From NCBI RefSeq assembly GCF_001895925.1, contig NZ_MPPI01000009.1, positions 89,869-153,868 on the forward strand: DNA of 64,000 bases, read 5' to 3'. Numbering within the stretch: the first letter of the stretch is position 1; every line of letters begins with the position of its first letter. The notes below the pieces were generated by a model. The model had not been told where the DNA came from. It made no database searches and saw only the letters and a list, made by a program, of their open reading frames with translations. A program made the position numbers and the translations under genes. Origin of the DNA: Phormidesmis priestleyi ULC007 (GTDB lineage: Bacteria; Cyanobacteriota; Cyanobacteriia; Leptolyngbyales; Leptolyngbyaceae). Below are positions 4,538-5,386 of the stretch, one piece after another.

Positions 4538-5101
4538 TTATGGATGGTTAACCTCAGTTTCACTCAATAGATAAGTCGGCAATCCATCAATGCTGACTTG
4601 ATTTTTTTCTTGCCAATATTGCTTGAGTCCGTCTTCACCTTTCTTTTCAGCCCAACGAATCATCGTTTCTCGTTCTCCTTGATACTCATAAAGTGGCACG
4701 CCATGACCGCAAGAAGTCTGTGCCGACTCAATCCTTAACTTGATGATTTGCCGTGCGCCTGGAGTCGGGAGAAACCAGCGATCGAGCCTTCCCCATTCAG
4801 CATCTCTCGGACGAATCACAGTGCCCTGCCCATAGAGACGCAAAATCAAAGGCTGTTGCGTGAAACTGCAAAACATGATCGTCATCCGGCCATTTTCGAT
4901 CAGATGGGCGCTGGTTTCGTTGCCGCTTCCAGTTAGGTCGAGATAGGCGACGGTGTGAGAGTCGAGACAGCGAAAGGTATCGATGCCTTTAGGTGAAAGG
5001 TTTACACGCCCATGAATTGGAGCAGATGCTGTAAAAAACATCTGCTGTTCAGCGATAAATTTTTGAAGCGGTTCGGTGAGTTCGGTATAAAACTTTGCCA
5101 C
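4538..5101 (-). CDS. Pyridoxamine 5'-phosphate oxidase-family flavin-binding protein
   Basis: Protein of 187 residues in the PNPOx-like split-barrel family that binds FMN or a related flavin. From the proposed start it reads VAKFYTEL, then FIAEQQMFFTASAP and GRVNLSPKG, the pattern of the cyanobacterial and proteobacterial 'pyridoxamine 5'-phosphate oxidase family' proteins of about 180-190 residues. These are not the true PdxH enzyme, and most have no assigned substrate. I prefer the GTG at 5101 because family members begin with this VAKFY segment. An upstream ATG at 5170 would add 23 residues encoded by a hairpin (5120-5184), which looks non-coding. No strong Shine-Dalgarno sequence is visible at either start. 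It stands alone, on the same strand as its neighbour upstream. Confidence 0.8.
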   Translation of the reverse strand: MAKFYTELTEPLQKFIAEQQMFFTASAPIHGRVNLSPKGIDTFRCLDSHTVAYLDLTGSGNETSAHLIENGRMTIMFCSFTQQPLILRLYGQGTVIRPRDAEWGRLDRWFLPTPGARQIIKLRIESAQTSCGHGVPLYEYQGERETMIRWAEKKGEDGLKQYWQEKNQVSIDGLPTYLLSETEVNHP

Positions 5102-5119
5102 AGCTATGGAAAATGAGAG

Positions 5120-5184
5120 GGTAGATCGATCAGACAAGTGAGTGAAGTTAAAACATTTAATTTCGCTCACTTACCCAATCTACC
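5120..5184 (-). terminator. Nested hairpin directly after the Atx1-like gene
   Basis: Outer arms GGTAGAT (5120-5126) and ATCTACC (5178-5184), inner arms AAGTGAGTGAA (5136-5146) and TTTCGCTCACTT (5161-5172). The hairpin ends one base from the stop codon of the minus-strand Atx1-like gene, a position typical of a terminator, but there is no clear T run. It could also be an attenuator for the PNPOx-like gene. Confidence 0.45.
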
Positions 5185-5185
5185 T

Positions 5186-5386
5186 TCAACTCTCCGTTAC
5201 TTGATGTCCTGTTGCCGTGATCAATTGCTTAAAGGTTTCTTCAGAGGCCTTTGCTTCGATCGTCACCGTTTTGTTAGCAACATCAATATCGACTTTGGCA
5301 TCCGGTTCAGTCGTCAAAATAGTTTCTTTAATTTCTTTTGCAATAGCAGGATTATCAAGGGTTGGAATATGTAGTTTTAACGCCAT
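5186..5386 (-). CDS. Atx1-like heavy-metal-associated domain protein lacking CxxC
   Basis: Single-domain protein of 66 residues with the length and layout of cyanobacterial copper chaperone Atx1 (HMA fold). Residues 1-10 (MALKLHIPTL) and the C-terminal GH at 60-61 align with that family without gaps. The copper ligands expected at Cys12 and Cys15 are Asn12 and Ile15 here, while His61, an additional ligand known in Synechocystis Atx1, is kept. The acidic and beta-strand pattern (KVDIDVANKTVTIEA) is intact, so the fold is probably preserved while thiol copper binding is lost. Start: the ATG at 5386 matches the family N-terminus; the longer frame adds an unrelated basic segment. It may be a divergent paralogue with a non-copper role. 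Confidence 0.75.
   Translation of the reverse strand: MALKLHIPTLDNPAIAKEIKETILTTEPDAKVDIDVANKTVTIEAKASEETFKQLITATGHQVTES

Follow-up and report, generated by a model that had tools for sequence, protein, structure and literature searches.

The Cys-less HMA protein gene and its predicted fold

The window, that is, the whole 64,000-nucleotide stretch of Phormidesmis priestleyi ULC007 DNA analysed here, harbored a minus-strand gene for a 66-residue HMA-fold protein (P0001), followed by a hairpin and a PNPOx-like (pyridoxamine-phosphate-oxidase family) gene (Table 1); the HMA protein was not encoded on the plus strand of the same interval. Translation of the ORF revealed no cysteine anywhere, with Asn12 and Ile15 occupying the positions of Cys12 and Cys15 in Atx1 and His61 present, and this translation together with the Pfam HMA match confirmed the initial annotation of the gene as encoding an Atx1-like HMA protein without CxxC. 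P0001 scored 26.3 bits against the Pfam HMA model PF00403, above the gathering cut-off of 24.8, and all 24 members of alignment A1 matched HMA at E ≤ 0.1. Among the NCBIfam copper chaperone models, CopP reached 15.9 bits against a cut-off of 112, and TIGR00003 gave no match at E ≤ 1. The CxxC of the Atx1/CopZ copper chaperones was missing from P0001 (N12, I15, no Cys), and judged by this defining motif the protein is not an Atx1 copper chaperone. The start codon at 5386 was accepted because nearly all inspected orthologues share an MxLKL-like start and the sequence upstream is unrelated or stop-bearing. Moreover, many assemblies hold intact Cys-less orthologues, so that a sequencing error or frameshift as the origin of the Cys-less form is excluded.

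Table 1. Features at the P0001 locus (positions in the window)
Feature	Position	Strand	Basis
Cys-less HMA (Atx1-like) protein, 66 aa, P0001	5186..5386	-	translation, Pfam, orthologues, AF2 model
Asn12 codon (Cys12 site of Atx1)	5351..5353	-	translation and ScAtx1 alignment; computed from start 5386
Ile15 codon (Cys15 site of Atx1)	5342..5344	-	translation; computed from start 5386
His61 codon	5204..5206	-	translation; computed from start 5386
Conserved residues 22-30, helix 1 end and next loop	5297..5323	-	clade entropy 0.45 vs 1.09 canonical
Conserved residues 45-54, helix 2 start (AKASEETFKQ)	5225..5254	-	clade entropy 0.34 vs 1.54 canonical
Hairpin between HMA stop codon and PNPOx-like gene	5120..5184	-	folding, shuffles
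PNPOx-like (pyridoxamine-phosphate-oxidase family) gene	4538..5101	-	GTG start 5101 chosen; listed ORF opens at 5170

The AF2 model of P0001, built from a 24-row alignment, had a pLDDT of 87.9 and a pTM of 0.69, with a single residue of the last strand assigned by DSSP, and the predicted fold is Atx1-like. Its best PDB match was Synechocystis Atx1 (ScAtx1, ssr2857; PDB 1sb6, 2xmt), with 0.8 Å over 62 columns and 29% identity to 2xmt, and the top four sequence matches among solved structures were likewise ScAtx1 chains. ScAtx1 resembles P0001 in its length, its ferredoxin-like HMA fold, and the GH at positions 60-61, but has Cys12 and Cys15, whereas P0001 lacks any cysteine. Its profile match and predicted fold mark P0001 as an HMA protein, a genuine paralogue under selection that lacks cysteine. 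A precedent for an HMA domain without CxxC is domain I of CCS in the fruit fly and mosquito (PMC6160046), which, however, belongs to a eukaryotic multidomain protein. An HMA domain routinely earns a protein the heavy-metal label, and a conserved, selected Cys-less bacterial clade illustrates that this label can mislead.

Distribution and selection of the Cys-less clade

At E ≤ 1e-9, the Cys-less gene was detected in 20 of 42 genomes from the window's family, the copy in G012 being cut short. No match at this threshold was found in the remaining 22, two of which (G013 and G040) hold remnants, and widening the search to the order covered the same 42 genomes and no others. A scan of named genomes revealed 17 loci with the gene, several of them probably duplicating assemblies of the family genomes (identical proteins), with hosts including Leptolyngbya, Phormidium, Pantanalinema, Elainella, Myxacorys, Microcoleus FACHB-1515, and a Myxosarcina MAG. 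The source genome of one locus (L122) was 38% contaminated, and the host of this locus is unsure. In Phormidesmis priestleyi BC1401 (one other genome of the genus was examined), the orthologue was 83% identical to P0001. No virus-borne copy was confirmed in one scan of viral contigs, and a literature search covering titles and abstract openings, with most subscription journals outside it, found no description of a Cys-less cyanobacterial HMA family.

The initial annotation had asked whether such proteins form a clade keeping His61, and this is the case in the main. All 25 rows lacked both Cys12 and Cys15, 23 of them had His61 (the other two had Tyr, both Myxacorys-type), and they formed one group (UFBoot 100, SH-aLRT 95) in a careful tree of 87 rows, thinned by identity and with the loop columns 9-16 omitted, whose bootstrap stopped short of full convergence. 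The group was recovered with an SH-aLRT of 93 in a quick tree of 188 rows, 4 of the original 192 having been excluded because they had more than 8 gaps; the trees rest on 55 columns. Furthermore, 13 columns were invariant among 24 clade sequences with identities to P0001 down to 50%. For 16 clade sequences, the median dN/dS was 0.094 over the 38 of 120 pairs with pS < 0.7, a rough figure given that the majority of pairs were near saturation, and the median pN/pS across all 120 pairs was 0.22. The window gene and its P. priestleyi orthologue gave a dN/dS of 0.14 at a dS of 0.64. The gene is thus under purifying selection, as relaxed decay would not yield such a dN/dS, and the form is common to many genomes, contrary to the relaxed selection that the initial annotation had named as a refutation.

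Truncated or stop-bearing Cys-less copies were observed in the family genomes G012, G013, and G040 (L024, L026/L279, and L051/L278), indicating that the gene is dispensable in some lineages. In addition, the gene looked broken or truncated in the named records L050 and L051, the latter and the G040 copy probably being one record. Such copies would be expected if P0001 were a relaxed, decaying version of a dispensable chaperone paralogue in the course of being lost, an explanation made very improbable by the low median dN/dS and the invariant columns retained at 50% identity.

Ordinary Atx1 in the same genomes

As the initial annotation had proposed to check, normal Atx1 was found elsewhere in the host genome. 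Two further HMA matches were identified there (L002 and L003), 36% and 31% identical to P0001, respectively; they have an HMA fold like P0001 and differ from it in their CxxC (MACSAC) and Tyr61. A Cys-rich DUF326 protein adjoins one of these canonical Atx1 genes (L003; 1875-2225, minus strand), and a similar Cys-rich ORF, with no Pfam match at 1e-5, adjoins the other (L002; 951-1232, plus strand). Across the genomes with the clade gene, a CxxC Atx1-like protein was found beside it in 19 of 20 when other matches at E ≤ 0.1 were considered, G028 being counted as CxxC-bearing through L277, as its other match (L271) gave no match on reading. The exception, G029, has the clade gene and no other HMA match at E ≤ 0.1. 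Of 54 loci inspected for the canonical set in the window's family, 48 scored above 80 bits, and all 48 rows kept both cysteines, as did the lower-scoring L027 and L245; three others (L026, L278, and L279, with L026 and L279 at the same place) were remnants of the clade gene. The existence of a selected Cys-less clade alongside normal Atx1 elsewhere in the genome makes a derived role, as suggested in the initial annotation, likely.

This coexistence in 19 of the 20 genomes would also suit an indirect service to the metal pathway of the CxxC relatives, for example as the heterodimer subunit of a CxxC Atx1, and metal-bridged homodimers of Atx1 are described (PMC3763678). The dimer described there, however, is bridged by zinc via Cys12 and Cys15 of both monomers (PMC3763678), residues that are absent from P0001, and we regard a heterodimer role as quite improbable.

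Position 61

Position 61 varied apart from the cysteines. All 48 canonical CxxC Atx1 rows from the family had Tyr there, whereas among 110 rows of a wider CxxC subfamily described below the residue was Tyr in 85, His in 13, and Phe in 9 (3 were unaligned at this position). His61 had been put forward as a retained metal ligand, which these residues do not support: since the relatives have His, Tyr, or Phe at this position, His61 is no clue to copper, and on the alignments it need not imply a metal site. In the Zn-Atx1 dimer, moreover, His61 is described as belonging to a hydrogen-bond network, the zinc being held by Cys12 and Cys15 (PMC3763678).

His61 in 23 of the 25 clade rows is nevertheless one of the points that would fit a changed metal carrier, in which zinc, iron, or some other ligand would be bound at a weak O/N site made up of the loop acids (11-14), Ser/Asn12, and His61. 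Each of the 17 non-redundant clade members has one or more acidic residues within 11-14, and four loci of CxxC relatives have an ArsR-type regulator gene nearby, accompanied at three of them by a ZnuA-type gene. No loop position, however, is acidic throughout (D11 0.53, E14 0.59), the loop entropy is 1.43, and the two Myxacorys-type rows have Tyr61; such a non-thiolate site is considered unlikely.

Conservation across the fold

Position entropies were compared among non-redundant sets of 17 Cys-less, 59 CxxC subfamily, and 41 canonical sequences, the canonical rows coming nearly all from one family and the clade rows from several. Whole-protein means were alike (0.93, 0.93, and 1.08 for the clade, the CxxC subfamily, and the canonical set, respectively). 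In the same order, the means were 1.43, 1.20, and 0.54 for residues 9-16 and 2.12, 1.28, and 0.43 for residues 36-39, and the relation was reversed for residues 22-30 (0.45, 0.97, and 1.09) and 45-54 (0.34, 0.64, and 1.54). Residues 58-62, also at the metal end, showed no inversion (0.89, 0.98, and 0.86). Between the metal end (8-16, 36-39, 59-62) and the other end (22-30, 45-52), the entropy shift gave a rank-test p of 1e-4 (3e-4 when columns 12 and 15 were omitted), and the CxxC subfamily showed a weaker shift in the same direction (p 0.008), all of these p-values being post hoc, as the ends were drawn after the entropies were known. Circular shifts produced a difference as large as the observed one in 2 of 62 cases. 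Read from the alignments, conservation in the clade is therefore inverted relative to canonical Atx1, whose conservation lies elsewhere in the fold: the metal loop has drifted, and residues 22-30 and 45-54 are nearly invariant. By fold topology, these two stretches would lie opposite the metal loop, and fold stability may account for part of the conservation at 45-54.

This pattern bears on the proposal of the initial annotation that the protein is an apo-decoy, which would dock on the N-terminal domains of CtaA/PacS or on Atx1 and block copper transfer. The face around the metal site is the docking surface between chaperone and ATPase domains. In keeping with a decoy, the predicted fold is the same as that of ScAtx1, and 19 of the 20 genomes with the clade gene also have a CxxC Atx1-like protein. 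A decoy, however, would have to copy the metal-site end, most of which has drifted (at 9-16, 1.43 bits versus 0.54 in the canonical set, and at 36-39, 2.12 versus 0.43, with 58-62 not drifted), and G029 carries the clade gene with no other match at E ≤ 0.1; this role is accordingly disfavoured and appears rather unlikely.

The explanation we prefer, to which we give slightly less than an even chance, is that P0001 is a Cys-less Atx1 paralogue that has given up copper carrying and acts as a small metal-independent protein-binding module. Residues I23, T25, E27, P28, and A30, together with A47, S48, E50, T51, and K53, would form one patch opposite the metal loop, and this patch would bind a conserved partner. 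Partner binding would be older than the loss of the cysteines, since much of this end is already conserved in the CxxC relatives. In the window's lineage only, the PNPOx-like protein is a candidate partner.

The wider subfamily and repeated cysteine losses

Profile searches uncovered relatives that combine CxxC with the EPDA and SEE signature of the clade; this CxxC HMA subfamily, which usually adjoins alaS in Nostocaceae, has EPDA and SEE(S/T)(I/F)KQ in common with the clade and differs in that most of its members keep CxxC. In the careful tree, a starred branch united the clade with the CxxC subfamily. Among the 161 of 192 rows scoring at least 65 bits, both cysteines were present in 111 and absent from 30, 19 rows retained just the second, and 1 just the first, in a sample gathered by similarity to the Cys-less profile that is not a census. 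Of the 110 placed CxxC rows, 94 had alaS upstream on the opposite strand, and 77 had a GGDEF gene on their own strand no more than 1.5 kb downstream, in neighbourhoods whose stretches were often only 1.5-2 kb and whose gene families were named from one representative each.

Cysteine losses were also observed within this setting. Both cysteines were lost in L204, which lies in the alaS/GGDEF neighbourhood of the CxxC rows, and in L088, which has a GGDEF gene next to it and for which the stretch examined showed no alaS, and one cysteine each was lost in L074, L120, and L236 in the alaS/GGDEF neighbourhood (L120 without the GGDEF gene). Loss of the first cysteine characterized a group of 17 rows plus one CxxC row (SH-aLRT 99), a second Nostocaceae paralogue, and no alaS was found near its first-cysteine-less rows in the stretches examined. 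In this second HMA paralogue (L109, L066, L170, L194, and related Nostocaceae loci), the loop reads KGDEC or similar, the first cysteine being gone.

For the double loss, the careful tree needed 5 changes, 3 of them forced by starred branches, and none of 200 bootstrap trees had a single change; starred branches of the larger quick tree forced 1. An AU test of all double losses as one clade did not reject that arrangement (p 0.163). Independent double losses are likely, although not proven, and the neighbourhood that L204 and L088 have in common with CxxC orthologues is better evidence for separate losses than the trees. Relatives with two, one, or no cysteines, some in the same chromosomal neighbourhood, thus offer a natural comparison for a non-metal role of the fold. 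More tentatively, and with the balance against it, the main job of the wider cyanobacterial HMA subfamily may never have been, or may no longer be, metal delivery; a partner would be bound via the end opposite the metal site, and CxxC would be an optional extra dropped by several lineages, wholly so by the Leptolyngbya-type clade.

Some CxxC relatives have other neighbours. An ArsR-type regulator gene was found near L087, L103, L108, and L114, with a ZnuA-type gene near three of these four, a hint of a zinc context; both gene families were assigned from a single representative. Near L116 and L119 lie a SufB gene and the gene of a regulator of the winged-helix type, in Pfam matching only HTH domains; we take the regulator to be SufR.

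The hairpin and the PNPOx-like gene

The hairpin that the initial annotation had noted against the stop codon proved to be real. It starts one base past the HMA stop codon, and the 81-base stretch folded with an MFE of -26.1 kcal/mol (z -3.8), a value matched by none of 200 shuffles. The ORF of the neighbouring gene (4538-5170) scored 41.6 bits against Pfam PF01243, and no solved structure was found for its protein at E ≤ 0.01. At 12 of the 25 clade loci, the HMA gene is followed by a PNPOx-like gene in the same orientation, a possible operon partner. The link is only local, because 37 of the 42 family genomes have the PNPOx-like gene, whether or not they carry the HMA gene; co-occurrence of the two genes accordingly gave no signal.

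Other identities considered for the hairpin were discarded: a dispersed repeat (the genome has a single full copy, and a further match of 18 bases is at chance level), a T-tailed terminator (no terminator-like site), and an Rfam family (one match, far below the gathering score). The 80 bases past the HMA stop folded with a z of -2.7 or lower (60 shuffles each) at 9 of the 12 PNPOx-linked clade loci, several of the nine being close relatives, and at 2 of the 13 clade loci without the PNPOx-like gene. The hairpin sequences aligned poorly between lineages. Folds past the HMA stop include those at 5120-5184 of the window, L035-L039, and L009-L011, and an element tuning expression is possible.
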